Program-made: the position numbers and the translations under genes
The notes under the pieces: generated by a model
What the model was told of the DNA's origin: nothing
Database searches by the model: none
The model's input: only the letters and a program-made list of their open reading frames with translations
From: Planotetraspora kaengkrachanensis
GTDB taxonomy: Bacteria; Actinomycetota; Actinomycetes; Streptosporangiales; Streptosporangiaceae
Length of the DNA stretch: 64,000 nucleotides
Assembly (NCBI RefSeq): GCF_016862895.1
Contig: NZ_BONV01000011.1
Coordinates: 1-64,000, forward strand
Reading direction: 5' to 3'
In this document: positions 1,942 through 18,634 of the stretch, in pieces
Position numbering within the stretch: position 1 is the first letter of the stretch
Layout: each line of letters starts with the position of its first letter

Positions 1942-3159
1942 ATGACTGAGTGGACTCCCGACGCGCGGGAACTGGCGGACCTGGAGTTGCTGCTCTCCGG
2001 GGCGTTCGCGCCGCTGACCGGCTTCCTGACCTCGGCCGACGCGAACGCGGTGGCCGAGACCGGCAGGCTGTCCGACGGGACGCCCTGGCCGGACCCGATC
2101 ACGCTCGCCCTTCCCGACGACATCCCTCCCGGCGCCCGGGTGACACTCATGGATCCCGAAGGCGCGGCGGTGGCCACGCTGACCGTCGAGGAGCGGGACG
2201 GCCACCATGCGGCAGGCCCGGTGGCGGCCCTCGACGCGCCCGCCTTTGGCCCGTTCGCCCGGCTGCGCCGTACGCCCGACGAGGTCCGCAAGGACCTCCC
2301 CGACGGGGAGATCCTCGCCGTGACCATGCGGGGCCCTCTCGACTCCGCCGTCCTCGAGGATGTGGCGGCGACCGCCGAGGAACTGGAGGCCACCGTCCTG
2401 CTGATGCCGCTGGTGTTCGGCGAGAGCGGCCCCGCGCTGGTGCGCGCGGCGCTCAAGGCGTCGGAGCGGCTGCCCGGATCGACCGTGGTCGCCGTGCCGC
2501 TCGCGCCCCGCGAGGACACCGAGATCGACCTGGAGCTTCGTGAGCATGTGGCGCGCAACTACGGCGCGACCGAGCACTACGCCGGGCCTGCCCCCGTCGT
2601 CATCCCGGGGCCGCCGCACCGGCGGGGACTCGTCGTGTTCTTCACCGGCCTGTCCGGGTCGGGCAAGTCGACGGTCGCGCGCGGCCTTCGCGACGCCCTG
2701 CTCGAACGGGGCGGGCGCACGATCACCTATCTCGACGGTGACGTGGTACGGCGGCTGTTGTCCGCCGGGCTCACCTTCTCCCGGGAGGACCGCGACCTGA
2801 ACATCCGCCGCATCGGCTTCGTCGCCGCGGAGGTCGCCCGGCACGGCGGCCTGGCCATCTGCGCGCCGATCGCGCCCTACGCGGCCACCCGCGACGAGGT
2901 GCGGGACATGGTGGAGGAGGTGGGCGCCGACTTCCTGCTCGTCCACGTCGCGACGCCGCTGGAGGAGTGCGAGCGGCGCGACAGGAAGGGCCTGTATGCC
3001 AAGGCCCGCGCGGGGCTGATCCCCGAGTTCACGGGGATCTCCGATCCGTACGAGGAGCCGGACGACGCCGAGCTCGTGCTCGACACCACCGGGGTGACGG
3101 TCGAGCGTTCCGTGAACGCCGTGCTCAACCTGCTGACCTCGGGAGGCTGGATCCGCTGA
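1942..3159 (+). CDS. cysC: adenylylsulfate (APS) kinase with vestigial ATP-sulfurylase N-terminus
   Basis: Protein of 405 aa. The C-terminal half (about 230-405) is a complete APS kinase: P-loop GLSGSGKST, then LDGDVVRRLLSAGLTFS, the DLNIRRIGFVAAEVARHGG helix and the APIAPY stretch. It phosphorylates adenylylsulfate with ATP to give PAPS. The N-terminus (about 10-55, LELLLSGAFAPLTGF) matches the PUA-like start of ATP sulfurylases. The region after it is much shorter than a sulfurylase catalytic domain, and I find neither the Q-x-R-N-P nor the H-x-x-H nucleotide-binding motifs. Sulfurylase activity is therefore probably lost and supplied by CysDN at 14094-16392. It stands alone in its orientation beside an exopolysaccharide cluster with three sulfotransferases. 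The ATG at 1942 has a purine-rich GGAAGAGACGA upstream. Confidence 0.88.
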   Translation: MTEWTPDARELADLELLLSGAFAPLTGFLTSADANAVAETGRLSDGTPWPDPITLALPDDIPPGARVTLMDPEGAAVATLTVEERDGHHAAGPVAALDAPAFGPFARLRRTPDEVRKDLPDGEILAVTMRGPLDSAVLEDVAATAEELEATVLLMPLVFGESGPALVRAALKASERLPGSTVVAVPLAPREDTEIDLELREHVARNYGATEHYAGPAPVVIPGPPHRRGLVVFFTGLSGSGKSTVARGLRDALLERGGRTITYLDGDVVRRLLSAGLTFSREDRDLNIRRIGFVAAEVARHGGLAICAPIAPYAATRDEVRDMVEEVGADFLLVHVATPLEECERRDRKGLYAKARAGLIPEFTGISDPYEEPDDAELVLDTTGVTVERSVNAVLNLLTSGGWIR

Positions 3160-3165
3160 TCCGCG

Positions 3166-3200
3166 GCGTCCCCGCCCGCCGGTTCAGCGGGTGGGGACGC
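3166..3200. terminator. hairpin between convergent genes
   Basis: GCGTCCCC at 3166-3173 pairs with GGGGACGC at 3193-3200, and an inner CCCGC/GCGGG extends the stem. It lies where the APS kinase gene and the convergent GH26 gene meet, with the GH26 stop codon inside the hairpin. There is no T-run on either side, so its role as a terminator is an inference from position and stem strength. Confidence 0.5.
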
Positions 3201-4251
3201 GCGTGCCGGAGAACTGGGGCTCGCGTCCGAGCTCGGCGAACGCGCGGCCGCCGCCCGGAGTCGTGTCGAACCGGGTGTCGCCACGCGGCGCCACCGGCGA
3301 GTCGAAATACACCAGCGCCTTGATCTGCGGATAGTCGTCGATCTGCCGCGCGACGGACGCGAAGAAGTCACGCTTGAACCTGGGCGAGCCCGATCGCTCG
3401 AAGGCCCCCCATTCGGCGATCATGATCGGCTTGCCGGGGAAGCGCCCCTGCATCCACCGATAGAAGCCGGGCCAGTGGGGATAGTCCGGGCGGGTCTTGT
3501 TCACCATGCCGGCGAAGTCGTTCACCTGCGAGTCGGCGTAGGGGTCGATGGCGACCCAGTCGACCACGTCGTCGCCCGGGTAGAGCGACTCGAACCACGG
3601 CTTGGACGCCCAGTTGGGCGCACCCATGTAGGTCATCACCGTCACGGCGTTCTGGACGCCCCGGGCCCGGAGGCGGGAGACGACGTGCCGGTACATGGCC
3701 ACGTAGTCGGTGGCGGAGAACCCGTCGCCCGGGCGGACGTCGTCCTCGGGCTCATGGTGGATCGTCAGGAAGAAGCGGCCGGGGAAGGTCCGGGTGATGT
3801 AGTCCGCGAGCCGGTCGATGCGGTCGTCCACCTCGCCCCGGGCCACCTGCGCCCACGTGCGGTCAGGTGCCGGCTTCCAGTTGACGAGCAGCAACCGGGG
3901 GCCCCGTGCGACGGCGCGCTCCTGAGGCGTGGGGAACAGCTCCTCACCCCGGTGGTACACGTGCACGATGTCCGCCCGGCGGCCCATCCTCCGCTCGGCC
4001 GTCTGGACCGACTGCAACGGGCGCCTGCCGGAGAAGACGTCGGGCGCGATCCCCCACCACGCCCCGCACGTCGGGATCAGCTTCTCCGTCACCACGCAAC
4101 TGGCGACCCTCGGCGGCCTGTGCGTCTGCTCAAGGTACGTCCCGACCCCCCGTGACGTGCTGTTCGCGGCCGAGCAGCCCACCGCGCCCGTCCCCATCAG
4201 TACGGCCAGGCCGGTGAATGCGGCCAAGCCGGCGCCCCCAGTTCGTCGCAC
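3184..4251 (-). CDS. secreted GH26-type glycoside hydrolase, putative lipoprotein
   Basis: Protein of 355 aa. It begins with MRRTGG, a hydrophobic run and GAVGC at about residue 27, a loose lipobox. The catalytic features of family 26 (beta-mannanase-like) hydrolases are visible: IHHEPEDD at about 165-172 (acid/base Glu) and MIAEWGAFE at about 277-285 (nucleophile Glu), with DPYADS between. It would cleave a beta-linked polysaccharide outside the cell. The GTG at 4251 is preceded by GAGGGGGGAAGC; a longer in-frame reading from 4335 would add an N-terminus without signal-peptide character. It is divergent from the Wzz-like gene and next to the exopolysaccharide operon. A role in trimming or releasing that polymer is plausible but unproven, and the substrate is not known. 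Confidence 0.8.
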   Translation of the reverse strand: MRRTGGAGLAAFTGLAVLMGTGAVGCSAANSTSRGVGTYLEQTHRPPRVASCVVTEKLIPTCGAWWGIAPDVFSGRRPLQSVQTAERRMGRRADIVHVYHRGEELFPTPQERAVARGPRLLLVNWKPAPDRTWAQVARGEVDDRIDRLADYITRTFPGRFFLTIHHEPEDDVRPGDGFSATDYVAMYRHVVSRLRARGVQNAVTVMTYMGAPNWASKPWFESLYPGDDVVDWVAIDPYADSQVNDFAGMVNKTRPDYPHWPGFYRWMQGRFPGKPIMIAEWGAFERSGSPRFKRDFFASVARQIDDYPQIKALVYFDSPVAPRGDTRFDTTPGGGRAFAELGREPQFSGTRVPTR

Positions 4252-4472
4252 CGCTTCCCCCCTCGTGTGGTCCACATCCCCGCGGGGGTTCACCTTCCCA
4301 CCAAGAAGGGGAGCCTGGTGGGCCATTCTTACCAAGTCATCTGTCCAGAAATTTCCGAGAAAAGTAGGCCGCTATCCGGTCATTCCTGCGTTGAAAATCT
4401 TCAATAGTGGAGGGGGAAAACCTCTCACCGGCCTATAGTTCGACTCCGAGCGAGGGGCACGGAGAGTTGGAC

Positions 4473-5684
4473 ATGATTCTTTCACCGCACAGCAGAGACA
4501 TCGCGGAATACGGTTCCGTCCTGCGCAGGCGGTGGCAAGTCTTCCTGTCATGCCTGGCCACAGGGATGATCGGCGGTGCGGTTCTCCTGTTGGAGACGCC
4601 CGCCTCCTTCATGTCCACGGCCCAGGTCCAGGTCTTTCCCACGGGAATGCAGGAACAACTCAACCTGATAACCCCACGGCAGAGGGAACCCCTCAACCTC
4701 GACACCGAGTCGCAGATCGCACAATCCACCGTGGTCGCCTCCATAGCCGCACAGGGCCTGAATTATGCGGATCCTGAGGGCTTACGAGAAATGGTCGACG
4801 TCAACGTTCCGCCCAATTCGGCCATTCTTGCCATCTCATTCACCACCACCGATCCCGGATCGGCGGCGAAGGGCGCCCAGGCGTTCGCCGACGCGTATCT
4901 CCAAAATCGGTTCCGCTCGGCGATGGACGCACTCACGGCCGAGCAGAAGGTCATCGCGGCCAAACTGCGCCAGGTGAACGCCGATCTGGCGAAGGCGGCC
5001 GCCGCCGTATCCGTGCAGGCCCCCGGATCGGCCGCGCGGGCGGTCGCGGCGCACCGGCAGACGGTGCTGGCCCGCCAGGCGTCCAACCTCACGGTCAAGT
5101 ACGACGCCCTCAAGACCGTCGCGATCACTCCGGGCACCGTCATCAGCCCCGCCCGGCCGCCTGTCGAGCCGAGTGCCCCCAGCGCACCGATCCATCTCGG
5201 CAGCGGGCTCTTCCTGGGCCTGGTGTGCGGCGCGGGGGCGGCGTTCGCCCGGGACCGGCTCGACACCCGCCTGCGCCGGGCCGGCGACGTGGAACGGCTG
5301 ACCGGACTGCCCATGCTCGCCGAGACCACGGGGCGACCGGAGGCGGTGATCTCCCGCGAACTCGCGGCCATCGCGGTGACCGCGCTGGGCGACGGCCGCC
5401 ACACGCTGCTCCTCGACGACCTCGGAGACGAGGGCCGCGGCCGGTCCATGGCCGAAGGACTGCGCGCCGCGCTCGCACCGCTCGCGCCCATCTCCGTCGC
5501 GACCGAGCGCGGCACCGGACCGGGCGCGGCGATGCTCCTCGCCCCGCTGGGCTCGACCACGTCCGCCGACGTGGCCGAGGCCGTACGGCGACTGGCCCGA
5601 CAGGGCGTGCGCGTGCTGGGCGTGGTGGCCTTGCCGCCCAGGCCCGCCGCGCCGGTGCCCGACCAGGCGGAGCAGGTCACGTGA
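4473..5684 (+). CDS. Wzz/chain-length-determinant protein with degenerate BY-kinase-like tail
   Basis: Protein of 403 aa. It has a short cytoplasmic N-terminus (YGSVLRRRWQ), a first membrane segment (about 24-43), an outside region with a helical hairpin (about 150-215), a proline-rich patch (ARPPVEPSAPSAP) and a second membrane segment (about 240-258). This is the polysaccharide co-polymerase layout. The C-terminal 140 residues resemble the cytoplasmic tyrosine autokinase domain that follows Wzz in Wzc/CapAB systems, but the nucleotide loop reads GDEGRGRSMAEGL, lacking the usual lysine. It probably controls chain length without kinase activity. GGAGAG stands seven bases before the ATG at 4473, which fixes the start. 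It is the first gene of a six-gene coupled operon, and its stop overlaps the next GTG. Confidence 0.82.
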   Translation: MILSPHSRDIAEYGSVLRRRWQVFLSCLATGMIGGAVLLLETPASFMSTAQVQVFPTGMQEQLNLITPRQREPLNLDTESQIAQSTVVASIAAQGLNYADPEGLREMVDVNVPPNSAILAISFTTTDPGSAAKGAQAFADAYLQNRFRSAMDALTAEQKVIAAKLRQVNADLAKAAAAVSVQAPGSAARAVAAHRQTVLARQASNLTVKYDALKTVAITPGTVISPARPPVEPSAPSAPIHLGSGLFLGLVCGAGAAFARDRLDTRLRRAGDVERLTGLPMLAETTGRPEAVISRELAAIAVTALGDGRHTLLLDDLGDEGRGRSMAEGLRAALAPLAPISVATERGTGPGAAMLLAPLGSTTSADVAEAVRRLARQGVRVLGVVALPPRPAAPVPDQAEQVT

Positions 5685-6937
5685 GGCCGGCGGTGTGGCC
5701 GGTCGGCGCGCTGCTGATCGGCTATCCCGTCTGGTGGGCACTCGGACTCGGCGGCCTCGCGGTCATCGTGCTCGCCGTGCCGATGGCCGTGATCCTGTGG
5801 CGCAGGCGGCCGATCAGGGTGCCCAAGGGCTTCGGCCTGTGGCTGCTGCTGCTCGCCGGATACCTCATCAGCGCCGCCACCCTGGCCGAGACGCCCGACG
5901 GCACCTACGGCGACCTGTCCCCCGGCCGGGTCACCGGCTACCTCGTGCGCCTGGCCGTCTACGTCTCCCTGCTCGTCATGGTCGTCTACCTGGGCAACCT
6001 CTCCCTCGACGAGCTTCCCCAGCTCACCCTCGTGCGGATGCTGGGGGTGCTGTTCGTCACGACGGTCACCGGGGGCCTGCTGGGCGTGTTCGCCCCCGGC
6101 TTCCAGTTCACCTCGCCGCTCGAGACGGTCCTGCCGGGGTGGATCGCCGACAACTCGTTCGTGCGGAACCTGATCCATCCGACGGCGGCGCAGATCCAGC
6201 ACGTGCTCGGGCACAGCTCGCCCCGTCCGGAGGCGCCGTTCGAGTGGGCCAACGCCTGGGGCAGCAACGTGTCCGTCCTGGTCATCTGGTTCGTGGTCGG
6301 CTGGTGGGCGTACGGCGGGCCGTACCGGCGGGTGACGGCGGTGCTGCTGCTCGCGGCCGCCGCGGTGCCGATCGTCTACTCGCTGAACCGCGGCCTGTGG
6401 ATCGGGCTCGCCATCTCGGCCGTCTACCTCGCCCTGCGCGGCCGCCCGCTGCTCGTCGGGGCCGCGGCCGCCCTCGCGGGCGCGGCCTTCTTCCTGTCGC
6501 CGCTGAGCACGATCGTCGCCCAGCGCATCGACAGCCCGCACAGCAACGACATCCGGGCCTTCACCGTCTCCTCCACCGTGCGCGTGGCCGCCACGTCGCC
6601 GCTCATCGGGTACGGCAACACGCGCAACGCCTTCGGCAACCAGCGCACGGTGACGACGGGCAAGACGCAGTGGTGCGAGGAGTGCGGCCATCCTCCCCTG
6701 GGCAGCGACGGCCAGTTGTGGCTGCTGCTGATCAGCCAGGGCTTCGCCGGCGCCCTGTTGTACGTCGGCTTCTTCGCGGGCGCCGTCCGCCGGTTCTGGC
6801 ACGACCGCACGCCCATCGGGCAGGCGGGCACGCTCGTCATGATCCTCGTGCTGTTCTACATGTTCGTCTACGACGGCCTGATCAGCGCGCTGAGCCTGTA
6901 TCTGATCTCCTTCGCCCTCCTCTGGCGGAACGCATGA
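5681..6937 (+). CDS. O-antigen ligase/polymerase-like membrane protein (Wzy type)
   Basis: Protein of 418 aa that is almost entirely hydrophobic, with about ten membrane segments and a large loop around 140-200. The pattern of many segments plus a GNTRNAFGNQ-type periplasmic loop (about 308-317) fits the Wzy/O-antigen ligase superfamily, which polymerises lipid-linked repeat units at the outer face of the membrane. The GTG start overlaps the upstream Wzz-like stop (GTGA) and its own stop overlaps the next ATG (ATGA), so it is coupled on both sides. The family is diverse and ligase versus polymerase cannot be told from sequence. Operon position between Wzz and Wzx favours polymerase. Confidence 0.8.
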   Translation: MRPAVWPVGALLIGYPVWWALGLGGLAVIVLAVPMAVILWRRRPIRVPKGFGLWLLLLAGYLISAATLAETPDGTYGDLSPGRVTGYLVRLAVYVSLLVMVVYLGNLSLDELPQLTLVRMLGVLFVTTVTGGLLGVFAPGFQFTSPLETVLPGWIADNSFVRNLIHPTAAQIQHVLGHSSPRPEAPFEWANAWGSNVSVLVIWFVVGWWAYGGPYRRVTAVLLLAAAAVPIVYSLNRGLWIGLAISAVYLALRGRPLLVGAAAALAGAAFFLSPLSTIVAQRIDSPHSNDIRAFTVSSTVRVAATSPLIGYGNTRNAFGNQRTVTTGKTQWCEECGHPPLGSDGQLWLLLISQGFAGALLYVGFFAGAVRRFWHDRTPIGQAGTLVMILVLFYMFVYDGLISALSLYLISFALLWRNA

Positions 6938-7929
6938 GAGACACCACGACACGTCTGCGCTACCTCCACGAGGTGCTGGCCGAGCTGTATCCGCCGGGCA
7001 CCTCGAGGGGGTCCCGCACGCTGCTCCCGCACCGGCTGGTGCCCCGGAGGCTGGTCCCGCGCACCCGCTGGCACGCGGCCCTCGGCCGCGGCGTGCCCGT
7101 GTGGGACGGCCCGGACACGATCGAGACCCACCTCAGCCAGGTACTCGGCACGCGGATCCGGGCCGTCGTGCACGTACGGCCGGCCAGGCGGGCCAACCGC
7201 AAGCCCGTCCTGGAGGCGCACGGGGAGGGCGGGCTCATCGCGTTCGTGAAGATCGGCGACTCGGATCGGACCAGGGAACTCGTCCGCCACGAGGGCGAGG
7301 TCCTGCGGCTGCTGGCGGATCACCCCATGAAGGTGGTGGTGCCGCCGTCCGTCGTCCATCAGGGAACGTGGCGCGGGCTCGAGGTGCTCGTGGTCTCCGC
7401 GCTGCCCGTCACCGCGGCACCGGCGCCCCGCGGGCTCCGCGACGCGGCCGTGGCCGAGATCGCCTCGTTCGGCCGCCGGCGGATGGCCGCGGGATGCGAG
7501 CGGAGCGAGCCGGCCCGGCCGCGGGCGGTGCCCGCGCGGGCGGGCGGCACGCCCCCGCATGACCACTCCGGATGGGGGTGGCACGGCGACTTCGCGCCGT
7601 GGAACGTGTCCGCGGCCCCCGACGGGCGGCTGCTCGTCTGGGACTGGGAACGGTTCGCCACCGGCGTCCCCCTCGGGTTCGACGCCCTCCACTACTACTT
7701 CAACCGGGCGCTGCGCCGGATGCGCCCCGCCGTCGCGGCCCGCTCCTGTCTGGCGCAGGCCGGCCTGCTCCTGGAGCCGTTCGGCCTGTCCTCCGCGGAG
7801 GCACGCGGGACCGCCGCCCACTACCTGATCACCCTTGCCGATCGGCACCACCGGGACGGCCACGAGCCGCTCGGCCCGTCGTCCCTGTGGCTCAACCCCC
7901 TCGTCGATCATCTGGAGAGCCTGCTGTGA
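6934..7929 (+). CDS. phosphotransferase-fold protein (APH/choline kinase-like) in polysaccharide operon
   Basis: Protein of 331 aa. The C-terminal half has the signature of aminoglycoside-phosphotransferase/choline-kinase-fold enzymes: HGDFAPWNV (catalytic loop, about 216-224) followed by LLVWDWERF (the metal-binding Asp). An N-lobe beta-lysine is suggested by LIAFVKIGDS. It would transfer phosphate from ATP to a small acceptor. ATGA coupling with both neighbours places it inside the exopolysaccharide operon, so a sugar or sugar-lipid acceptor is more likely than an antibiotic. Residues 180-205 are a Pro/Arg/Ala-rich insertion. Its true substrate is unknown. Confidence 0.72.
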   Translation: MRDTTTRLRYLHEVLAELYPPGTSRGSRTLLPHRLVPRRLVPRTRWHAALGRGVPVWDGPDTIETHLSQVLGTRIRAVVHVRPARRANRKPVLEAHGEGGLIAFVKIGDSDRTRELVRHEGEVLRLLADHPMKVVVPPSVVHQGTWRGLEVLVVSALPVTAAPAPRGLRDAAVAEIASFGRRRMAAGCERSEPARPRAVPARAGGTPPHDHSGWGWHGDFAPWNVSAAPDGRLLVWDWERFATGVPLGFDALHYYFNRALRRMRPAVAARSCLAQAGLLLEPFGLSSAEARGTAAHYLITLADRHHRDGHEPLGPSSLWLNPLVDHLESLL

Positions 7930-8783
7930 GGTCCACGTTGAAGCGCTCGGCTCATGCCGTCTCCCTCACCACGGGCATGCTCACGACGCGCGCGCGGATG
8001 TTGCCCTCCTTCCTGATCGTCGGAGCGCAGCGGTGCGGCACCACCTCGCTCTACCGTGCGCTCTCCCGGCACCCGTTGATCGTCAAGCCGGTGCTGCGCA
8101 AGGGCGTGCACTACTTCGACGTGAGCTACGACCGCGACCTGTCGTGGTACCAGGCGCACTTCCCGCTCAAGGCCACCGGGCAGCGGCTCGAGCGCCGCCA
8201 CGGCCATCGCACCCAGGCCTTCGAGTCGTCGCCGTACTACCTCTTCCATCCGCTCGCGGCCGCCCGGATCTCCTGGAACCTCCCCGGCGTGAAGCTGATC
8301 GTGCTGGTCAGGGATCCGGTCGAGCGGGCCGCGTCGGCGCACGCGCACGAGCTCGCCCGGGGGTTCGAGGTCGAGCCGTCGTTCGAGCGCGCGCTGGACA
8401 TGGAGGACGCGCGGCTCGCAGGCGAAATCGCACGGCTGCGTGAGTCCCCCCACTACCTCAGCCACGCCCACCGGCACCACGCCTACGTCGCCCGCGGCAG
8501 GTACGCCGAGCAGCTGAACCGCCTGGAGCTGCTCGTCGGCCGCGACCGGCTGCTCGTACTTGACAGCGGCAGGTTCTTCCGCGAGCCGGAACCCGTCTAC
8601 GACCGCGTCCTGGAGTTCCTGGGGCTGCCGCGGCTGGGTGACCCGGTGTTCGAGGTGCACAACGCGCAACCGCGGACCTCAGAGATGCCCCTGTCGGTGC
8701 GCCGGCGGCTGAGCGCGCACTTCGGCCCCTGGGACGCCCTCCTCAAACAATGGCTCGGGACAGAGCCCTCGTGGCACCGATGA
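7926..8783 (+). CDS. PAPS-dependent sulfotransferase
   Basis: Protein of 285 aa. The 5'-phosphosulfate-binding loop IVGAQRCGTTSLYRAL is at about 31-46, and the 3'-phosphate-binding strand-helix LIVLVRDPVERAASAHAHEL at about 125-144. Both are hallmarks of the heparan/carbohydrate sulfotransferase family, which moves sulfate from PAPS to a sugar hydroxyl or amine. The LxxxVHYFD and FESSPYYLFHP stretches also fit that family. It is coupled at both ends by 4-base overlaps to the phosphotransferase-like gene and the flippase gene. This is the first of three sulfotransferases in the locus; the acceptor is presumably the lipid-linked repeat unit or the polymer. Confidence 0.88.
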   Translation: MRSTLKRSAHAVSLTTGMLTTRARMLPSFLIVGAQRCGTTSLYRALSRHPLIVKPVLRKGVHYFDVSYDRDLSWYQAHFPLKATGQRLERRHGHRTQAFESSPYYLFHPLAAARISWNLPGVKLIVLVRDPVERAASAHAHELARGFEVEPSFERALDMEDARLAGEIARLRESPHYLSHAHRHHAYVARGRYAEQLNRLELLVGRDRLLVLDSGRFFREPEPVYDRVLEFLGLPRLGDPVFEVHNAQPRTSEMPLSVRRRLSAHFGPWDALLKQWLGTEPSWHR

Positions 8784-10105
8784 GCGTCCTCGGAACACGT
8801 CTTCCCACCGGCCGTGTGGCGCGCGGCGGCATCGCCGGACTCGCCGCCGCGGGAGGCGGGGCCGCGAGCCAGTTCCTCATCGTGTTGCTCGTCACCCGAT
8901 CACTCGACCCCGGCGCGGCGGGGGCGTTCTTCACCGCGACGGCGTTGTGCCTCATGCTCGCCGGGATCCTGCGGCTCGACGCCGGCAACGGGCTGATCTA
9001 CGCGCTGGCGCGGCCACGGGACGAGCACACGGCCCGCGCGGTGGTGTGGGCGGCGCTCGCCCCCGTCGTGGCGTGCTCCGCACTCGCCGCGGTCACCGTC
9101 ACGATCCTCGATGCCGAACTGGCAGCGCTGACCGGCGTCCCCGACGCCGTCTGGCCGGTGCTGGCGGCGGCCCTGCCCGCCGTCGTGCTGGCGGACGTCC
9201 TGGTGGCGGCCACCCGAGGGCTCGGCTCGATGCGCCCGACGCTCCTGCTCGACGGCCTCGCCCGGCCGGCGAGCCAACTGCTCCTGGTCGCCGTGGGGGT
9301 CCTCACGGGTGCCTCCCTGCCGATGACGACGGCCGCGTGGGCCCTGTCGGCCGTCCCCGCCACCGTGCTGGCGGCGTGGTGGCTCGGCCGGCGCCTGCCG
9401 GGCCCGGCGGCTCTCCCGCTCACGTGGGATCGGGAGGCGACGGCGTCGTTCTGGCGATACACCGGCCCGCGGTCGGTCGCCTCGGCCATCCAGGCGGTGT
9501 TCCAGCGCCTCGACATCGTGATCGTCGCGGTGCTGGCCGGCCCGGCGCCCGCGGCCGTCTACACGGCGGCCACCCGATTCAAGGTCGTCGGGCAACTGGC
9601 CAACCAGGGGCTGACCCAGGCCGTGCAGCCCCACCTCGTCAGGGCGATCGCCGACGGCGACCTCGCACGGGCCCGGCGCCTCTACCAGACCACGACCATG
9701 TGGCTGGTCGTGCTCACCTGGCCGATCTGGCTCGGGTACGCGGCACTCGCGCCGTGGTTGCTGCCGCTGTTCGGCCCGTCCTACGCCGACGGCACGGCTA
9801 TCGCGCTGGTGCTCTCCGGGACCATGGTGGTCGCCACCGCCTGCGGCATGGTCGACGTCGTCCTCATCGCATCCGGGCATACGGCGGCGAGCCTGGCCAA
9901 CACCGGGTGCGCCGTGGCGGTGACCGTCGTGGCCGACGTGCTGCTGGTGCCGTCCCACGGCGCGCTCGGTGCCGCGCTCGGCTGGTCGGCGGGGGTGCTG
10001 GTGAAGAACGCGTTGCCGCTGGTACAGATCTCCCGGCGTTACGGTCTGCTGCCATTCGGCCGGCATTCCGCGGGAGCCCTGAGGTTGCGAAGGAGCGTCG
10101 CGTGA
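8780..10105 (+). CDS. oligosaccharide flippase (Wzx/MATE-like)
   Basis: Protein of 441 aa with about 12-14 hydrophobic segments and few charged residues, typical of the MOP superfamily polysaccharide exporters. The stretch FWRYTGPRSVASAIQAVFQ followed by LDIVIVAVLAGPAPAAVYTAA matches the middle of Wzx-type flippases. It would move undecaprenyl-diphosphate-linked repeat units across the membrane for polymerisation. ATG at 8780 overlaps the sulfotransferase stop; its own stop overlaps the next GTG. An ATG ten codons upstream, inside the preceding gene, is less likely. Confidence 0.85.
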   Translation: MSVLGTRLPTGRVARGGIAGLAAAGGGAASQFLIVLLVTRSLDPGAAGAFFTATALCLMLAGILRLDAGNGLIYALARPRDEHTARAVVWAALAPVVACSALAAVTVTILDAELAALTGVPDAVWPVLAAALPAVVLADVLVAATRGLGSMRPTLLLDGLARPASQLLLVAVGVLTGASLPMTTAAWALSAVPATVLAAWWLGRRLPGPAALPLTWDREATASFWRYTGPRSVASAIQAVFQRLDIVIVAVLAGPAPAAVYTAATRFKVVGQLANQGLTQAVQPHLVRAIADGDLARARRLYQTTTMWLVVLTWPIWLGYAALAPWLLPLFGPSYADGTAIALVLSGTMVVATACGMVDVVLIASGHTAASLANTGCAVAVTVVADVLLVPSHGALGAALGWSAGVLVKNALPLVQISRRYGLLPFGRHSAGALRLRRSVA

Positions 10106-11064: not shown

Positions 11065-11092
11065 CATGCTAGTTAGCATGTCAGTTAGCATG
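11065..11092. promoter_or_regulatory. operator-like CATGCTA/TAGCATG repeats
   Basis: CATGCTA and TAGCATG form a 7+7 inverted repeat around GT at 11065-11080. The ten-base AGTTAGCATG at 11071-11080 recurs exactly at 11083-11092, a 12-base period. It sits immediately upstream of a small helix-turn-helix reading frame, as an autoregulatory operator would. The same bases also read as a short ATG-initiated peptide (11066-11107) rich in V-S-M. Confidence 0.5.
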
Positions 11093-11345: not shown

Positions 11346-12167
11346 TCAGGATCCACGCCGGAGCCGCCGCGACAGGCGTTTCAACAGGCAGACGGCGAGC
11401 AGGCGCAGCGCGAACGGCAGGTCGTCGACGAGGTAGCGCCGCGCCAGCCTGCCCGGCTCGCTCAGTAACCGGAACAGCCACTCCAGCCCGTGATCTCCCA
11501 TCCACGCGGGAGCCCGCCGTACGGCGCCGGCGGTGAAGGCGATCGCGGAGCCGCAGCCGACGAACCACGCCCCGGGCAGATCGGCCCGGACCGTGGCGAT
11601 CAGCCGATCCTGCTTGGGGAAGCCGAGCCCCACGAAGACCAGCCGCGGGGCGGCCGCGACGAGCCGCCTCCGCACCTCGGCGACGGCCTCCGGGCACGAT
11701 TCGAATCCGTACGGCGGGGCGTCGGTCCCGGCCACCACCAGCCCCGGATAGCGGTCGCACAACACGTCCCTGGCGGTCTGCGCCACCCCCGGCGGACCGC
11801 CGAGCAGGTAGATCGGCATGCCGCCGGCGGCGGCGGCTTCCGACAGCGACCAGATCAGGTCGGCTCCGGTGACCCTTTCCGGCAAAGGACGGCCGAGCAG
11901 CCGGGCGGCCCAGACCAGTGGCATGCCGTCCGCGACCGCCAGGTCGGCCCGGGTCACCAGGGCGCGCAGGTCGGCGTGCCGCGAGATCGCCCGGCAGATG
12001 TCCACATTGGGAGTGACGAGGTGGCCGCCCCTGCCGCGGCGGAGCGCCGCGACCACATGCTCCACCACCTGCGCCTCGGTCAGCGGATCGACCTTGACAC
12101 CGGCGACCGCAACCCGACCGTGGCGCCGGCGGGCCGGAGCCTGCGCCACCTCCGATCGTGTGGCCAT
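11346..12167 (-). CDS. WecB/TagA/CpsF-family glycosyltransferase
   Basis: Protein of 273 aa. Family motifs are visible in order: TPNVDICRAI (about 50-60), VADGMPLVWAARLLG, PERVTGADLIWSL, IYLLGGPPGVA, FVGLGFPKQDRLIA and GCGSAIAFTAGAVRRAPAWM. Members transfer N-acetylmannosamine or a related sugar onto a polyprenyl-linked acceptor, usually as the second sugar of a repeat unit. The ATG overlaps the upstream GT2 stop by one base (TGATG), so the two are coupled. It is the last gene of the minus-strand part of the exopolysaccharide locus. The Arg-rich C-terminus (LKRLSRRLRRG) probably docks it on the membrane. Confidence 0.88.
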   Translation of the reverse strand: MATRSEVAQAPARRRHGRVAVAGVKVDPLTEAQVVEHVVAALRRGRGGHLVTPNVDICRAISRHADLRALVTRADLAVADGMPLVWAARLLGRPLPERVTGADLIWSLSEAAAAGGMPIYLLGGPPGVAQTARDVLCDRYPGLVVAGTDAPPYGFESCPEAVAEVRRRLVAAAPRLVFVGLGFPKQDRLIATVRADLPGAWFVGCGSAIAFTAGAVRRAPAWMGDHGLEWLFRLLSEPGRLARRYLVDDLPFALRLLAVCLLKRLSRRLRRGS

Positions 12168-13084
12168 CAGATGCCGTGACCGCGGGCGTTGAGCAGGCTC
12201 AGCACGGCGCTCGCGGAGATCAGCCTCCCGGCGACCGCCAACGCGACGGCGGCGCGGGGTTCACTCCTGCGGGCCGCGAAGGCCCTGAGCGCCCAGCGGG
12301 CGGCCTCGCGGCGGTGACCGAGAGCCGCGTGCGAGAAGGCCAGCTGGCCGTAGATCCGGGCGGCGCCGCGCGCGTCGGCCGCCAGCTCGGGATGGCGGCC
12401 CAGCATCCAGTCGAGGCCCGCGATGCGGTCGGCCCACTTCGTGACGTACTGCGAGGCGCCCCAGCGCACCCGGACGAGGGGACGGTCGACGTGGACGATC
12501 GGATGCCGCCACGCCGCGCGCAGCGCGAGGTCCCAGTCCTCGTTCTGACCGCCGGGGGCGCTCTCGTCCACCCAGATGGAGCCCCGCCGGAACAGGAACG
12601 TGGACGAGTGGACCATCATCATCCGCGAGCGCGTCAGATGCTCGCGCGTCACCCTGTCGGTTCCGGCGAGGCGGGGGACGCGGCGCGAGCCGTACTCGAT
12701 CTCGATCGCACAGCTCGCGAAGTCGGCCTCCGGCTCCTCGGCCAGCGCGGCCGCCTGCGCGGCCAGCTTGCCGGGCAGCCAGAGGTCGTCGTCGTCGCAG
12801 AAGGCGACGAGTTCGGTCTCGAGGGCGGCGATTCCGGAGTTCCTTGCTCCGGGCAGCCCGGGCCGCTGGCGGTTCGGCAGGATCCGGACGCGGCCCCGAG
12901 GCGAGCCCATGATGCTCCCCAGTCGCCCGGCCACCTGCTCGACCGGCACGTCCGCCGCGTCGACGACCACGACGACCTGCAACGGGCGGCCGTAGGCCTG
13001 GTCCAGCACGCCGGCCACCGCGGCGGCGAGCGAGTCAGGCCGGTCTCCTCGGGTGGGGATCACCACTCCCACGGACGGGTTCAC
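12167..13084 (-). CDS. family 2 glycosyltransferase
   Basis: Protein of 305 aa with a GT-A fold. VGVVIPTRGDRPDSL opens it at about 5-19, LPGARNSGI is at about 81-89 and the metal-binding FCDDDDLW follows at about 100. NEDWDLALRA near residue 190 is the likely catalytic-base region. The last 60 residues are helical and Ala/Arg-rich. It adds one sugar from a nucleotide-sugar donor during repeat-unit assembly; donor and linkage cannot be read from sequence. The GTG at 13084 follows the stop of the sulfotransferase gene by only 14 bases, so both are probably on one transcript. Confidence 0.85.
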   Translation of the reverse strand: MNPSVGVVIPTRGDRPDSLAAAVAGVLDQAYGRPLQVVVVVDAADVPVEQVAGRLGSIMGSPRGRVRILPNRQRPGLPGARNSGIAALETELVAFCDDDDLWLPGKLAAQAAALAEEPEADFASCAIEIEYGSRRVPRLAGTDRVTREHLTRSRMMMVHSSTFLFRRGSIWVDESAPGGQNEDWDLALRAAWRHPIVHVDRPLVRVRWGASQYVTKWADRIAGLDWMLGRHPELAADARGAARIYGQLAFSHAALGHRREAARWALRAFAARRSEPRAAVALAVAGRLISASAVLSLLNARGHGI

Positions 13085-13098
13085 GTAACGAGCTCCGA

Positions 13099-14010
13099 TC
13101 AGTAGGCGAGGGGGTAGCCGTAGACGAGCAGCAGCGGCCAGGTCAGCGCGGTGACCAGCCAGCGCTGCCGGAACCGGAGTGCCGCGCGGCGGTCGTGGAA
13201 CTCGATGTGGCCCACGGCGAACCGCATGGGGTTGCCGGAGACCGTGTGCGCGACACCCAGCCGGGCCTGGCCGTCCTCGACGAAGCCGAGCGCCTCGGGG
13301 GAGTCGGGCAGCCGCAGGTCCGCGGCCAGCCGCGTCAGCGTCGTGACGGGGTCCTGCACGAGGTCCTCATAGTGGACGCGGACGACCTGGACGCCCTTCC
13401 ACCGCAGGACCTCGAAGGCCAGGTTCTGCGCGAGCCAGTGCATGGCCGTCCTGGCGGGCGCCCACCGCGCCATCGGCCGGCCGTCCTCGGGCCGCCGCAC
13501 CCTTCTGCGCCAGGACGCCGCGACCGCCCGCGGGTCGCGCACCACATGGACGACTCGTACGTCCATGGTCGCGGACAGGCAGAACGCCAGGGAGGCGTGC
13601 TTGCTGGAGTCGATGACGACGCGCGCCGCCGCGACCTCGGCCGCGGCGGCGTAGATCCGTGAGTACGCCGAGACGTACTCGGCGAGTTCGGCCTCCCGGG
13701 TCAGCAGCCCGACGGCGAAGACCGGGATGCGGCGGGTGCGGTCCACACGGGCGCGCAGCTCCTGCAGCATGACGGCCCGGCTCTCCCGCCAGAAGCCGAA
13801 CGCGCGGCCGCCGACCTTGGTCCAGAACGTGCACTGGGAGAACCGTGAGCCACAGCCGCAGGGCTCGTCGGCGCGGACGCCGCGGGCCCACAGATGGACG
13901 ACCTCTCCGAGCGGCGCCACGCCCGGAATCTCTCCGAGAAGGCGTTCGAGCAGGGTGGTGCCGCTACGGCCCAGCCCCCCCACGAAGATCACCGGCTGAG
14001 CGTCGGCCAC
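13099..14010 (-). CDS. sulfotransferase family protein
   Basis: Protein of 303 aa. The PAPS loop is VGGLGRSGTTLLERLLGEIP at about 10-29, a second motif reads VIDSSKHASLA at about 138, and the 3'-phosphate-binding VVRDPRAVAASWRRRV follows at about 159. A Cys-rich patch, CGCGSRFSQC at about 51-60, is a feature of one bacterial sulfotransferase subgroup. The gene sits directly downstream of cysN, with 84 bases between, and upstream of two glycosyltransferase genes. This links PAPS synthesis to polymer assembly in a single minus-strand run. The GTG at 14010 has GGTGGAGGGCTC upstream. Confidence 0.88.
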   Translation of the reverse strand: MADAQPVIFVGGLGRSGTTLLERLLGEIPGVAPLGEVVHLWARGVRADEPCGCGSRFSQCTFWTKVGGRAFGFWRESRAVMLQELRARVDRTRRIPVFAVGLLTREAELAEYVSAYSRIYAAAAEVAAARVVIDSSKHASLAFCLSATMDVRVVHVVRDPRAVAASWRRRVRRPEDGRPMARWAPARTAMHWLAQNLAFEVLRWKGVQVVRVHYEDLVQDPVTTLTRLAADLRLPDSPEALGFVEDGQARLGVAHTVSGNPMRFAVGHIEFHDRRAALRFRQRWLVTALTWPLLLVYGYPLAY

Positions 14011-14093: not shown

Positions 14094-15356
14094 TCAGTGC
14101 GCATCGACGATCATCCCTGCACCGACGGTGCTGTTGGTGGCCTCGTCGATCAGGATGAACCCGCCGGTTTGGCGGTTCCTGGCGTAGTCGTCCACGAACA
14201 GCGGCTGGGTGGTGCGCAGCGTCACCCGGCCGATCTCGTTGAGCCCGAGCGAGGTCGCCGACTCGTCGCGGTGGAGCGTGTTGACGTCCAGGCGGTACTG
14301 CAGGTCCCTGACCACGGTCCGCGCGGTCCTGGTGCTGTGCTTGAGAACGAGCTTGGAGCGCGACTGCAGCCGCACCCCGTCGGTCATCCACGCGACCATC
14401 GCGTCGATCTCCTGGGCCACCTGCGGCTGGTTGTGCGGGCGGCAGATCATGTCGCCACGCGAGATGTCGATGTCGTCCTCCAGCCGGAGCGTGACCGACA
14501 TCGGCGGGAAGGCCTCGTCGAGCGCGCCGTCGAACGTGTCGATCGACCTGATCCGCGTGGTGAGGCCCGACGGCAGGTGCATGACCTCGTCGCCCGGCTT
14601 GAGTACGCCCCCGGCCACCTGACCCGCGTAGCCGCGGTAGTCGTGCAGCGACTGGTTCGTCGCGTTGTGCGGGCGGATCACGTACTGCACAGGGAAACGC
14701 ACGTCGACGAGGTTGCGGTCGGAGGCGATGTGCACGTGCTCCAGGTGATGGAGCAGCGAGGTCCCCTCGTACCACGGCATGTTCTCCGAGCGGGAGACCA
14801 CGTTGTCCCCGTGCAGCGCGGAGATCGGGATGAACGTGAGGTCGCTGGCGTTCAGCTTCGACGCGAAGGCGGTGAACTCCTCGCGGATCTCCTCGAACCG
14901 GGCCTCGGAGTAGTCGACGAGGTCCATCTTGTTGACCGCGAGGACGAGGTGGGGCACCCGGAGCAGCGTCGTCAGGAACGCGTGCCGCCGCGACTGCTCC
15001 AGCACGCCCTTGCGGGCGTCGATCAGGATGATCGCCAGGTCGGCGGTCGAGGCGCCGGTGACCATGTTGCGGGTGTACTGAATATGCCCCGGGGTGTCGG
15101 CGATGATGAACTTCCGCCGCGGCGTCGCGAAGTAGCGGTAGGCGACGTCGATCGTGATGCCCTGCTCCCGCTCGGCCCTGAGCCCGTCGGTGAGCAGCGA
15201 CAGGTCGGTGTACTCCGTGCCCCGGTCGCGCGAGGTGCGCTCGACCGCTTCCAACTGATCTTCGAAGATCGCCTTGGAGTCGAACAGCAGCCGGCCGATC
15301 AGCGTCGACTTGCCGTCGTCCACGCTGCCCGCCGTCGCGAAACGAAGGATGTCCAT
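14094..15356 (-). CDS. cysN: sulfate adenylyltransferase subunit 1, GTPase CysN
   Basis: Protein of 420 aa. G-domain motifs are GSVDDGKSTLIGRLLFDSK (about 10-28), DTPGHIQYTRNM (about 91-102) and NKMDLVDYS (about 146), then EF-Tu-like beta-barrel domains to the C-terminus. CysN uses GTP hydrolysis to drive formation of adenylylsulfate by its partner CysD. The protein stops at the usual length for CysN without a fused APS kinase, which matches the separate APS kinase at 1942-3159. It lies 121 bases downstream of cysD in the same direction. Confidence 0.96.
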   Translation of the reverse strand: MDILRFATAGSVDDGKSTLIGRLLFDSKAIFEDQLEAVERTSRDRGTEYTDLSLLTDGLRAEREQGITIDVAYRYFATPRRKFIIADTPGHIQYTRNMVTGASTADLAIILIDARKGVLEQSRRHAFLTTLLRVPHLVLAVNKMDLVDYSEARFEEIREEFTAFASKLNASDLTFIPISALHGDNVVSRSENMPWYEGTSLLHHLEHVHIASDRNLVDVRFPVQYVIRPHNATNQSLHDYRGYAGQVAGGVLKPGDEVMHLPSGLTTRIRSIDTFDGALDEAFPPMSVTLRLEDDIDISRGDMICRPHNQPQVAQEIDAMVAWMTDGVRLQSRSKLVLKHSTRTARTVVRDLQYRLDVNTLHRDESATSLGLNEIGRVTLRTTQPLFVDDYARNRQTGGFILIDEATNSTVGAGMIVDAH

Positions 15357-15477: not shown

Positions 15478-16392
15478 TCAGAAGTAGCCTTCCTTCTTGC
15501 GATCTTCCATGGCGGCCTCGGACGCGCGGTCGTCGGCGCGGGTGGCGCCGCGCTCGGTGATCCTGGTCGCCGCCACCTCGTCGATGATCTGCTCGACGGT
15601 CGTGGCGGTCGAGGCCACCGCGCCGGTGCACGTCATGTCGCCGACCGTGCGGTAGCGGACCACCGCCTCGAAGATCGGCTCGTCCTCGCCCCGCTGGACC
15701 ACCTCGGCGTCGGCGAGCAGCATGCCGTCGCGCTCGAACACCTTGCGGGTGTGGGCGAAGTAGATCGAGGGGATTTCGATGCCCTCGCGCTGGATGTAGT
15801 GCCAGATGTCCAGCTCGGTCCAGTTGGACAGCGGGAACACGCGGATGTGCTCGCCCTTGCGGATCCGGGTGTTGTAGAGGTTCCACAGCTCGGGCCGCTG
15901 GTTCTTCGGGTCCCACTGGCCGAAGTCGTCGCGGAAGGAGAAGACGCGCTCCTTGGCCCTGGCCTTCTCCTCGTCCCGGCGGGCCCCGCCGAACACGGCG
16001 TCGTACTCGTGCTCCTCGATCGCGTCGAGCAGGGTCGTGGTCTGCAGGCGGTTGCGCGAGGCGCGCCGCCCGGTCTCCTCCATCACCCGTCCCGCGTCGA
16101 TGGACGCCTGGACCGAGGCCACGACCAGCCGTGCGTTCAGCTCGGCGACGCGGCGGTCCCTGAAGTCGATCACCTCGGGGAAGTTGTGCCCGGTGTCCAC
16201 GTGCATCAGCGGGAAGGGGATCGGCGCCGGCCAGAACGCCTTCTCCGCCACCCGCAGCATGACGATCGAGTCCTTGCCCCCGGAGAAGAGCAGACACGGG
16301 CGCTCGAACTCGGCCGCGACCTCGCGCATGACGTGGATCGCCTCGGCTTCGAGCACGTCGAGCTGTGACGTCGTGTAGTCACGCTGGAGCAT
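15478..16392 (-). CDS. cysD: sulfate adenylyltransferase subunit 2, CysD
   Basis: Protein of 304 aa, the normal length for CysD. The PP-loop FSGGKDSIVMLRVAEKAF is at about 36-53, followed by HVDTGHNFPEVIDFRD, GGARRDEEKARAKERV and the DELDIW-like TELDIWHYI. It makes adenylylsulfate from ATP and sulfate together with CysN. GGAGG eight bases before the ATG at 16392 fixes the start; a longer reading from 16473 would have no support. cysQ ends 19 bases upstream, so cysQ, cysD and cysN form one transcription unit with the priming sugar transferase. Confidence 0.96.
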   Translation of the reverse strand: MLQRDYTTSQLDVLEAEAIHVMREVAAEFERPCLLFSGGKDSIVMLRVAEKAFWPAPIPFPLMHVDTGHNFPEVIDFRDRRVAELNARLVVASVQASIDAGRVMEETGRRASRNRLQTTTLLDAIEEHEYDAVFGGARRDEEKARAKERVFSFRDDFGQWDPKNQRPELWNLYNTRIRKGEHIRVFPLSNWTELDIWHYIQREGIEIPSIYFAHTRKVFERDGMLLADAEVVQRGEDEPIFEAVVRYRTVGDMTCTGAVASTATTVEQIIDEVAATRITERGATRADDRASEAAMEDRKKEGYF

Positions 16393-16411
16393 TGGTGCTT
16401 CCTCCGGGAGA

Positions 16412-17173
16412 TTAGCGATGAAGGTCACGGATGCCGGCGAGCAACGTTGGCGCCAGATCCGGTAGGCAGACAAGGATATCCGGCAGTGAGGGGTCCGCCT
16501 GGTTGTATACGAGCGGCGAGCCGTCGATCCTGCTGGCGTGCGCGCCCGCGGCGAGCGCCACGGCGACCGGCGCCGCGGAGTCCCACTCGTACTGGCCGCC
16601 CGCGTGGACGTAGGCCTCGACCTCGCCGGTGAGGACGGCCGAGATCTTGGCCCCGGCGGAGCCGATCGGGACGAGGTCGGCGCCCGCGAGGACCGCGAGT
16701 TTCCGCACGAACTCAGGGGGTCGGGTGCGGCTGACCGCGATCCGGAATTCGTCGCCGGGCTCGGCGATCACGGGGGGAGCGGCCGTCGTGAGGGTCCTGC
16801 CCTGCGCCGGAAGCGCCACCGCCCCCGCCGTCAGCCCGCCCCTCTCCCACAGCGCCACGTGAACCGCCCAGTCGGACCGGCCCTCCTCGGAGAACTCACG
16901 GGTGCCGTCGAGCGGATCGATGATCCACACGCGGTCGGCCGTCAGGCGGCGCGGATCCATCCGCTCCTCGCGGGTGGCCTCCTCCGACAGCACGCTGTCG
17001 CTCGGCCTGAGCCGCTGCAGGGCCTCGGTGAGGAAACGGTGCGACGCCTGGTCGCCCGCGTCCTTCAACGCCCGCTGGTCGGCGAACCCCTGCTTGTCAC
17101 GGAGCGTGAGCAGCCGCTCCCCCGCCTCGGTGGCCAGATCCGCCGCGAGGGCGTGGTCGTCCCTAATCGTCAT
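16412..17173 (-). CDS. cysQ: 3'(2'),5'-bisphosphate nucleotidase CysQ
   Basis: Protein of 253 aa of the inositol-monophosphatase superfamily. The metal-binding motifs are SEEATREER at about 63, IIDPLDGTREFSE at about 84-96 and YEWDSAAPVAVALAAG near 200. CysQ removes the 3'-phosphate from PAP, the product-inhibitor left by sulfotransferases, and can also act on PAPS. Its ATG directly abuts the stop codon of the priming sugar transferase with no gap, and cysD follows after 19 bases. That placement argues for a role in supporting sulfotransferases and not only cysteine synthesis. Confidence 0.93.
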   Translation of the reverse strand: MTIRDDHALAADLATEAGERLLTLRDKQGFADQRALKDAGDQASHRFLTEALQRLRPSDSVLSEEATREERMDPRRLTADRVWIIDPLDGTREFSEEGRSDWAVHVALWERGGLTAGAVALPAQGRTLTTAAPPVIAEPGDEFRIAVSRTRPPEFVRKLAVLAGADLVPIGSAGAKISAVLTGEVEAYVHAGGQYEWDSAAPVAVALAAGAHASRIDGSPLVYNQADPSLPDILVCLPDLAPTLLAGIRDLHR

Positions 17174-18634
17174 TCAGTAAGCTCCCGCGCCGCCGGCGAC
17201 CGCTGACCAGGTCTTCCATAGGATCTGCAGATCCAGCATCAGCGACCAATTCTCGATATAACGCAGGTCCAACCGTACCGATTCCTCCCACGAAAGATCA
17301 GACCTGCCGTTGACCTGCCAGAGGCCGGTCATCCCGGGACGCACGACCAGGCGCCTGCGGACGTCGTCGCGGTAGCGGGCGACCTCCTCCGGCAGCGGCG
17401 GGCGTGGTCCCACCAGGGACATGTGACCCCGGAGCACATTGATCAACTGGGGCAGCTCGTCGAGCGAGTGCCGCCGCAGGCGGACCCCCATGCGGGTGAC
17501 CCGCGGATCCTGACGGATCTTGAACAGCAGTCCGTGGCCCTCGTTGACCAGCTCCACCCTGCGGGCCTCGGCGTCGTTCCGCATGGTCCGGAACTTCAGG
17601 ATCGTGAACTCCACACCGTCTTTCCCGATCCGCGTCTGCCGGAACAGCACCGGCCCGGGGCTCGACGCCCGTACGGCTATCGCGATGGCGAGCATCAGCG
17701 GAGCGAGCAGAATCAGGGCGACGCCCGCGACCAGCCGGTCGAAGGCCGTCTTGAGCAGCTGGCGCGCGCCGGCGAGCTCCGGATGCTCCACGTGGAGCAG
17801 GGGAAGCCCCGCCACGGGCCGGATCGTGGTGCGCGGCCCGGCGACCTCCATGAGGGCCGGGGCGACCACGAGGTCGGTGCGGGTCCGCTCCAGCCGCCAG
17901 GCCAGCCTCCGCAGCGCCGTGCCGTCGAGTTCGGGACAGGCGAGGACCGCCACGGTGTCCGCACCCATCTGCTGCACGACGAGGGGCACGTCGGTGAAGT
18001 CGCCCAGGACGGGGATCTCCTCGATCTCCCCGGACGACTCGGCGGGCAGGCACGCCGCGACGATCTCCATCCCGTGGTAGCGCTCGCGCCGGAACCTCGT
18101 GATCAGCTCCGCGATGCCCGCGTGGTGGCCCACCGCCACCACCCGGCGCATGCAGTCCTCGCCCCGGCGCCGGCGACCGTGCAGCCGGCGGCGTAGGCCG
18201 TACCGGGCGAGAAGGGTCAGGACGGTCATGAGCGGCAGCGCCACGACGACGTACCCGCGGGCGAGATCGGCCTTGGTCACGTAGGCCGTGATGGCGACCG
18301 CCGCGATGAGGATGAATCCGCACTGGGCGATCCGGCGGAACTCCTCGGAGCCCACACCGATCAGGCGGGGCTCGTAACCCCTGTCGAGACAGATCATGGC
18401 GGCCCACACGGGTGGAAGCGCACAACTCAACACCACATACGGCGCCACGTAAGGAGTAACCTCGCCGAACCTGAGCAGTACGGCGGCGACCCCGGACAGA
18501 AGGGCACACGTCATGTCGGACACAACCGCGTGTAACCGGTATCGGGTCGCCCAGCGTGGCGGCCGCGGGGTCGGATGCGCCGGCGCCACCCGCGCCCGGC
18601 CGGCGGCGACCACTGACACTTCGCCGTCCAGCAC
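17174..18634 (-). CDS. polyprenyl-phosphate sugar-1-phosphate transferase (priming glycosyltransferase)
   Basis: Protein of 486 aa. The N-terminal half holds four or so membrane segments and a Rossmann-like domain (CMRRVVAVGHHAGIAEL). The C-terminal catalytic part begins after a further hydrophobic segment: FRQTRIGKDGVEFTILKFRTM, LDELPQLINVLRGHMSLVGPRPP and WQVNGRSDLSWEES. This is the bacterial sugar transferase family, which starts repeat-unit synthesis by moving sugar-1-phosphate onto undecaprenyl phosphate. The GTG at 18634 has a GGAGGG box. It is first in a minus-strand run with cysQ, cysD, cysN, a sulfotransferase and two glycosyltransferases. The divergent gene upstream leaves about 100 bases for promoters. 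Confidence 0.93.
   Translation of the reverse strand: MLDGEVSVVAAGRARVAPAHPTPRPPRWATRYRLHAVVSDMTCALLSGVAAVLLRFGEVTPYVAPYVVLSCALPPVWAAMICLDRGYEPRLIGVGSEEFRRIAQCGFILIAAVAITAYVTKADLARGYVVVALPLMTVLTLLARYGLRRRLHGRRRRGEDCMRRVVAVGHHAGIAELITRFRRERYHGMEIVAACLPAESSGEIEEIPVLGDFTDVPLVVQQMGADTVAVLACPELDGTALRRLAWRLERTRTDLVVAPALMEVAGPRTTIRPVAGLPLLHVEHPELAGARQLLKTAFDRLVAGVALILLAPLMLAIAIAVRASSPGPVLFRQTRIGKDGVEFTILKFRTMRNDAEARRVELVNEGHGLLFKIRQDPRVTRMGVRLRRHSLDELPQLINVLRGHMSLVGPRPPLPEEVARYRDDVRRRLVVRPGMTGLWQVNGRSDLSWEESVRLDLRYIENWSLMLDLQILWKTWSAVAGGAGAY

Follow-up and report, generated by a model that had tools for sequence, protein, structure and literature searches.

Among bacteria, sulfated polysaccharides have been called nearly exclusive to cyanobacteria (PMC8205485, PMC13390465), although marine Vibrio (PMC11641403) and Cobetia (PMC11766843) are exceptions in having sulfated capsules. 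Sulfate was measured in synechan, the product of the xss genes of Synechocystis PCC 6803 (PMC8205485), and the capsule polymer of Vibrio sp. KMM 8419 was demonstrated to be sulfated (PMC11641403). For actinomycetes, a gene-disruption study of the wps-1 cluster of Actinoplanes missouriensis appeared in 2026 (PMC13390465). There, wps-1 is described as encoding a glycosyltransferase of family 2 (GT2), a sulfotransferase, a glycosyltransferase of family 26 (GT26), a DUF4262 protein, a glycoside hydrolase of family 26 (GH26), a methyltransferase, Wzx, a heparan-type sulfotransferase, a kinase-like protein, Wzy and Wzz, and it is adjoined by AMIS_7390, a gene of the sulfate adenylyltransferase/APS-kinase family (APS, adenosine 5´-phosphosulfate). 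Apart from the DUF4262 gene, deletion of any wps-1 gene reduced spore release or led to distorted sporangia, and the loss of either sulfotransferase, of the kinase or of the adjacent APS kinase was harmful to sporangia or spore release. Growth of the mutants was normal, and the authors conclude that normal sporangia need all wps-1 genes but one (PMC13390465). Here we describe a locus of similar content in Planotetraspora kaengkrachanensis (Streptosporangiaceae), at positions 1942-18634 of the window, by which we mean the whole analysed stretch, bases 1-64000 of the 124-kb contig 11 of an 8.77-Mb genome. It is a real, conserved system, and its product is most likely a sulfated polysaccharide. 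An earlier sequence-only reading of this DNA knew of no characterised system of this kind; the work on wps-1 contradicts it on this point.

The locus encodes a priming transferase, a flippase, a polymerase and a co-polymerase together, as a Wzx/Wzy pathway does, and combines them with three sulfotransferases and genes for supply and recycling of 3´-phosphoadenosine 5´-phosphosulfate (PAPS). All genes named by the sequence-only reading were found there in profile searches (Pfam, NCBIfam), and two more came to light: one, between apsK and wzz, for a GH26-type lipoprotein and the other, between wzy and st1, for a kinase-like protein (Table 1). Tightly coupled runs of genes had also been claimed. 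With the starts chosen by us among several candidates per reading frame, wzz, wzy, the kinase gene, st1, wzx and st2 indeed overlap end to start by a few bases, and so do gt26 and gt2, but apsK is not contiguous with the plus-strand run because the minus-strand GH26 gene intervenes. Three of the eight PF00685 places of the genome fall into these 16.7 kb, for which random placement gives about 6e-4. Because of this concentration, and because gene order is kept in relatives, the clustering is regarded as more than chance. The other five Sulfotransfer_1 places of the genome lie outside the locus, on contigs C3, C10 (two), C21 and C30.

The motifs for PAPS binding, which we take to be the 5´ P-loop and the 3´ phosphate motif, are intact in all three sulfotransferases, as had been proposed from the letters of the window (alignments of 30, 17 and 23 sequences for ST1, ST2 and ST3, respectively). 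Residues of both motifs are invariant in ST1, the P-loop motif is invariant in ST2, and the PAPS-motif residues are conserved in ST3. Among solved structures, ST1 is nearest to the bacterial sulfotransferase 3rnl (2.7e-38), followed by heparan sulfate 3-O-sulfotransferase (3-OST, 4.2e-31) and the heparan sulfate N-sulfotransferase NDST (2e-24); judged by sequence, it is a relative of the heparan sulfate 3-O- and N-sulfotransferases. A simple scan detected no hydrophobic or transmembrane segment in ST1, ST2 or ST3, and sulfation is therefore expected in the cytoplasm, ahead of flipping.

Conservation in Streptosporangiaceae was assessed in 80 named loci, of which 65 with about 10 kb on each side were counted and 15 shorter ones left out. 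The genes for GH26, Wzz, Wzy, the kinase-like protein and ST1 are present in 65/65, and apsK, wzx and st2 in 64/65. In the right half, which a flank of about 10 kb does not always cover, gt26 was found in 57, gt2 and st3 in 56 each, and cysN in 46. Order and strands are identical in all 62 loci that hold all eight left-half genes and in all 46 that hold gt26-gt2-st3-cysN, hence the proposed Wzx/Wzy-type locus with PAPS-type sulfotransferases is kept as a unit. The segment wzz-wzy-kinase-st1-wzx is in view in 73 of the 80 loci and has the same order in 72. The exception comes from Sinosporangium siamense (L101), where a kinase-st1-wzx block precedes wzz-wzy; an ST2 match is absent there, which places this locus outside the 62. 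In Microbispora, unrelated genes, one of them folD-like as read by eye, stand between the two halves. The Wzy relatives at 88-97% identity belong to four named Planotetraspora species.

Wzy matches occur in 141 of 200 genomes drawn from the family as defined in GTDB; in 83 of these, the identity is at least 67%. Since five of 11 fetched Wzy-less genomes (L194-L197, L199) keep ST1, ST3 or both, the figure of 141 is a lower bound. Of 65 more distant places in the family (33-55% identity to Wzy), 40 were fetched in stretches of up to 20 kb, so that counts of outer genes are lower bounds. The kinase-like protein and ST1 are found in 40/40 of them, wzz and wzx in 39, gt2 in 38, GH26 in 35, st3 in at least 24, cysN in at least 20 and apsK in at least 9, in varying order. 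Distances of eight of the genes are correlated in a way that fits co-inheritance (30 loci with all eight full reading frames). Relatedness of species alone would give the same correlation, therefore no weight is put on it.

The core of the locus extends beyond the family. A draw of 394 genomes from the class includes 42 outside Streptosporangiaceae with a Wzy match, and an ST1-type sulfotransferase lies within 10 kb of it in all 23 genomes with a match at E<=1e-60, as opposed to 5/19 with weaker ones. In 12 fetched loci from outside the family, the kinase gene is present in 11. The wzy-kinase-sulfotransferase core thus recurs in several other actinomycete families.

From these observations we infer a Wzx/Wzy-dependent pathway for a sulfated surface polysaccharide, to which we assign a probability of roughly 0.7. 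In the proposed scheme, the priming transferase would put a sugar phosphate on undecaprenyl phosphate, and GT26 and GT2 would elongate the lipid-linked unit. APS would come from CysDN, probably shared with sulfur assimilation, and would be converted to PAPS by ApsK. The unit would then be sulfated by ST1, ST2 and ST3 in the cytoplasm, with CysQ removing the by-product 3´-phosphoadenosine 5´-phosphate (PAP), and the kinase-like protein may phosphorylate the repeat unit or its precursor. Flipping by Wzx and polymerization by Wzy with Wzz would follow. Outside the cell, the GH26 lipoprotein might trim or release the polymer. By analogy with wps-1, the product probably belongs to the envelope of spores or aerial hyphae.

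Table 1. Genes of the locus, with positions in the window and main profile or alignment results
Feature	Position	Strand	Support
APS kinase (apsK), N-terminal PUA_2	1942..3159	+	PF01583 1.6e-56, PF14306 4.5e-18, TIGR00455 over cut-off
GH26-type glycoside hydrolase, likely exported lipoprotein	3184..4326	-	PF02156 20.5 bits
Wzz-like polysaccharide co-polymerase	4473..5684	+	PF02706 E 0.0019, below cut-off
Wzy-like polymerase	5681..6937	+	Wzy_C in 22/30 aligned relatives
Kinase-like protein (APH / choline-kinase type)	6934..7929	+	alignment, 25 sequences
Sulfotransferase ST1	7926..8783	+	PF00685 8.4e-11
Wzx-like flippase	8780..10105	+	PF13440 2.6e-8, over cut-off
Sulfotransferase ST2	10102..11025	+	PF13469 1.5e-11
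WecG/TagA/CpsF (GT26) glycosyltransferase	11346..12167	-	PF03808 1.8e-56
GT2 glycosyltransferase	12167..13084	-	PF00535 6.9e-17
Sulfotransferase ST3	13099..14010	-	PF13469 8.2e-18
CysN, ATP sulfurylase large subunit	14094..15356	-	TIGR02034 579.7 bits, over cut-off
CysD, ATP sulfurylase small subunit	15478..16392	-	TIGR02039 456 bits, over cut-off
CysQ-like 3´(2´),5´-bisphosphate nucleotidase (PAP recycling)	16412..17173	-	PF00459 5.3e-33
Priming polyprenyl-phosphate sugar-1-phosphate transferase	17174..18634	-	PF02397 1.3e-68, TIGR03025 over cut-off

Assignments of Wzz and Wzy combine weak profile scores with position and relatives. The window's copy of Wzy has no Pfam match, and its profile matched none of the solved structures; the Wzy_C matches of its aligned relatives range from 4.5e-9 up to E of 1, and a simple scan shows eight hydrophobic segments. 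Wzz has hydrophobic segments at residues 22-40 and 240-258 and matches TIGR03017 and TIGR01006 below the cut-off. The GH26 protein barely exceeds the PF02156 cut-off (20.2 bits) and has no NCBIfam match. A phmmer search of PDB relates it to Endoglucanase H (1.1e-13), its lipobox was read by eye, and in 101 aligned sequences E192 is invariant and E305 is kept in 97%; we take this pair to be the catalytic glutamates. In the kinase-like protein, K106, HGD 217-219, N224 and D237 are invariant among the 25 aligned sequences, seven of which match PF01636 (APH). The window's copy matches no Pfam family and shows a choline kinase match at E 0.006. Its predicted model (predicted local distance difference test score, pLDDT, 86.9) has a strand-rich first part and a helical second part and, as read by eye, suggests a kinase fold.

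Several points weigh against the proposed pathway. Firstly, the ST1 profile has Gly aligned with the Glu of 3-OST which is presumably catalytic, and ST1 is therefore classed as a sulfotransferase and not as a 3-OST. Secondly, in the 40 distant family loci (stretches of up to 20 kb), ST2 was found in none and GT26 in four; this distribution suggests that ST2 and GT26 belong to the closer group and that wzz-wzy-kinase-ST1-wzx-GT2 is the old core. Thirdly, no Wzy match was obtained in family f17, our unconfirmed guess for the family that includes Actinoplanes; in its genus g129 (eight genomes searched), the apsK stretches fetched for five genomes contain no glycan core. In three g129 genomes, apsK stands beside cysQ with a priming-transferase match, and wzy and ST1 are absent from the stretch. 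Further, a -10 octamer of the WhiG/FliA type has no match upstream of wzz (4326-4473) or of the priming gene (18634-18737); the window as a whole has 43 matches, against 26 expected. Sulfate in the polymer of this locus is predicted from its genes, and likeness to wps-1 means part list and order by published description, not sequence homology. The sulfated wps-1 polymer is itself a prediction by its authors (PMC13390465).

ST1-like genes of f17 were considered as members of the same system and rejected, as the eight stretches with an ST1 match (L168-L175) hold no other locus gene. In two of them (L168, L170), the stand-alone ST1-like gene adjoins a gene that looks hydrolase-like by eye.

The remaining points against the pathway concern its sulfate supply. 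An APS kinase is present in 22/22 family genomes tested, Wzy-less ones included; given this and the five other sulfotransferase places of the genome, apsK is no proof of the pathway and marks sulfation in general. It is the sole full-length APS kinase match in its own genome, the second match being a 49-residue piece (E 8.9e-4). Another contig, on which cysDN is not found, carries the genes for CysH and the assimilatory sulfite reductase. CysH scores 233.2 bits with the APS-reductase model (cut-off 235.3) versus 172 bits with the PAPS-reductase model (cut-off 254.2), and it carries cysteine pairs, which we take to be the APS-reductase signature. As CysH is far nearer to the APS-reductase model, PAPS would be needed only by sulfotransferases, and ApsK is probably there for sulfation; it weighs on the other side that the general CysH models NF002537 and TIGR00434 pass their cut-offs and the APS-reductase model does not.

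The APS kinase keeps a PUA_2 domain, and the catalytic domain of Sat-type ATP sulfurylase was not detected in it. Eight of the 22 genomes tested retain a Sat match, next to the APS kinase match within an equally long frame, and the enzyme therefore looks like a decayed Sat-ApsK fusion.

The alternative that survives best, in our estimate somewhat short of even odds, is that the system consists of the glycan genes, the sulfotransferases and apsK, and that cysNDQ is merely a fixed housekeeping neighbour of pth-glmU serving sulfur assimilation. The sequence-only reading had counted a full PAPS supply and recycling set as part of the locus. All its genes are present (CysQ reaches 108 bits with TIGR01331, for which the strict cut-off is 228.8), but the set is not dedicated. 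There is one CysD match in the genome and no Sat-type ATP sulfurylase (PF01747) was found there, so cysDN duplicates no other ATP sulfurylase found in the genome, and a dedicated second cys set is rejected. The 11 Wzy-less family genomes with a fetched CysD region all keep cysNDQ and pth, and in six of them (L198, L200-L203, L207) the stretch has no sulfotransferase, Wzx or Wzy match. Two of the six (L202, L207) retain the priming transferase and, as read by eye, nucleotide-sugar-like genes, therefore further glycan genes may lie beyond the stretch. In the 12 loci from outside the family, the fetched stretches hold neither cysN nor cysD. Against a housekeeping role alone stands the position of the genes. 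CysD lies within 31 kb of Wzy in 93/93 family genomes with both on one contig, on opposite strands in 89 (111 genomes covered, 18 with the two on separate contigs), and sulfotransferases need CysQ and an APS supply. Further, three family genomes (L204-L206) carry second CysD copies, each with an ST3-like match (32-35% identity) in the stretch. CysD is found in all 141 Wzy-bearing family genomes, once in 126 and two or three times in 15, at a loose cut-off with pieces included. From the single CysD, the lack of Sat and the occurrence of cysNDQ without its neighbours, we conclude that cysNDQ is probably shared and serves sulfur assimilation as well.

A second alternative concerns the place of the polymer, which might be a wall-anchored secondary polymer or a capsule of vegetative hyphae and not a spore or sporangium matrix. 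Nonomuraea and Microbispora, which form spore chains or pairs and not sporangia, contribute 25 and 9 of the 80 named loci. Since many carriers are of this kind, a general role in the spore or hyphal envelope fits better than one in sporangia only. We nevertheless consider a vegetative polymer unlikely, as it was sporangium formation or spore release, and not growth, that suffered in the wps-1 mutants described above. That the sulfotransferases act on small molecules or lipids, and only happen to sit next to a pathway for an unsulfated polysaccharide, is very improbable: among solved structures, ST3 is best matched by polyketide-synthase and tyrosyl-protein sulfotransferases, but ST1 is of heparan-sulfate type, its gene overlaps those of the kinase and Wzx, and its tie to Wzy holds in all 23 outside genomes with strong matches.

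Some features at the edges and in the middle of the locus should be mentioned. A gene for a SigE-family sigma factor (1302-1901, minus strand) lies immediately left of apsK, and several named relatives have such a match beside apsK. Between the two convergent runs there is an open stretch (11073-11327, plus strand) that reads by eye as helix-turn-helix-like (HTH-like); no usual start codon precedes the HTH-like part, and relatives carry unrelated genes at this junction. A short terminator-like inverted repeat is found there as well (11065-11080), one of five such sites in the region, where 3.8 are expected by chance. A sigma-70 promoter scan of the locus region returned no match.

If the proposed pathway is real, sulfated envelope glycans would be common among soil actinomycetes, the antibiotic producers, and the locus offers bacterial relatives of heparan sulfotransferases. 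We further put forward, as a tentative and at present rather doubtful idea, that in Streptosporangiaceae a locus present across the family, for an envelope polymer that is sulfated and perhaps phosphorylated too, has taken in the genome's sole sulfate-activation operon, with one supply feeding both assimilation and envelope, and that sulfated polysaccharides are common in actinomycetes instead of being a cyanobacterial speciality. Among the literature matches listed, judged by titles and abstract openings, there was no account of such a locus in the family. The seen parts of a genomics paper on Planotetraspora (PMC11431748) contain no word beginning with sulf- or exopolysaccharide, and those of PMC12691653 mention neither GH26 nor wps nor sulfate.

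Taken together, the locus can be placed among three described systems. The xss cluster resembles it in bringing Wzx, Wzy, a co-polymerase and two sulfotransferases together, and differs in being plasmid-borne, with eight glycosyltransferases and regulators of its own; PAPS-supply genes, a kinase-like protein and GH26 are not listed for xss in the passages seen (PMC8205485). The capsule locus of Vibrio sp. KMM 8419 likewise holds cysC, cysN and cysD with sulfotransferases within a polysaccharide locus (PMC11641403), but its host is Gram-negative, export is by an ABC transporter, and the cys genes are second copies there and the only copy found here. Closest in content is wps-1, which shares GT2, GT26, GH26, Wzx, the heparan-type sulfotransferase, the kinase-like protein, Wzy, Wzz and the adjacent APS kinase-family gene. 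By description, WpsJ would correspond to Wzy, WpsI to the kinase-like protein and WpsH to ST1, and the wps-1 numbering Wzx-sulfotransferase-kinase-Wzy-Wzz-APS kinase mirrors apsK-wzz-wzy-kinase-st1-wzx, save for the GH26 gene between apsK and wzz here. The Planotetraspora locus has a third sulfotransferase, the priming transferase and cysNDQ in addition; wps-1 has the methyltransferase and the DUF4262 gene. The kind of system was thus already known, and what is new is the breadth of the locus and its sharing of the only sulfate-activation genes detected in the genome. By part list and similar gene order, set against the published description, it is most likely the Streptosporangiaceae counterpart of wps-1.

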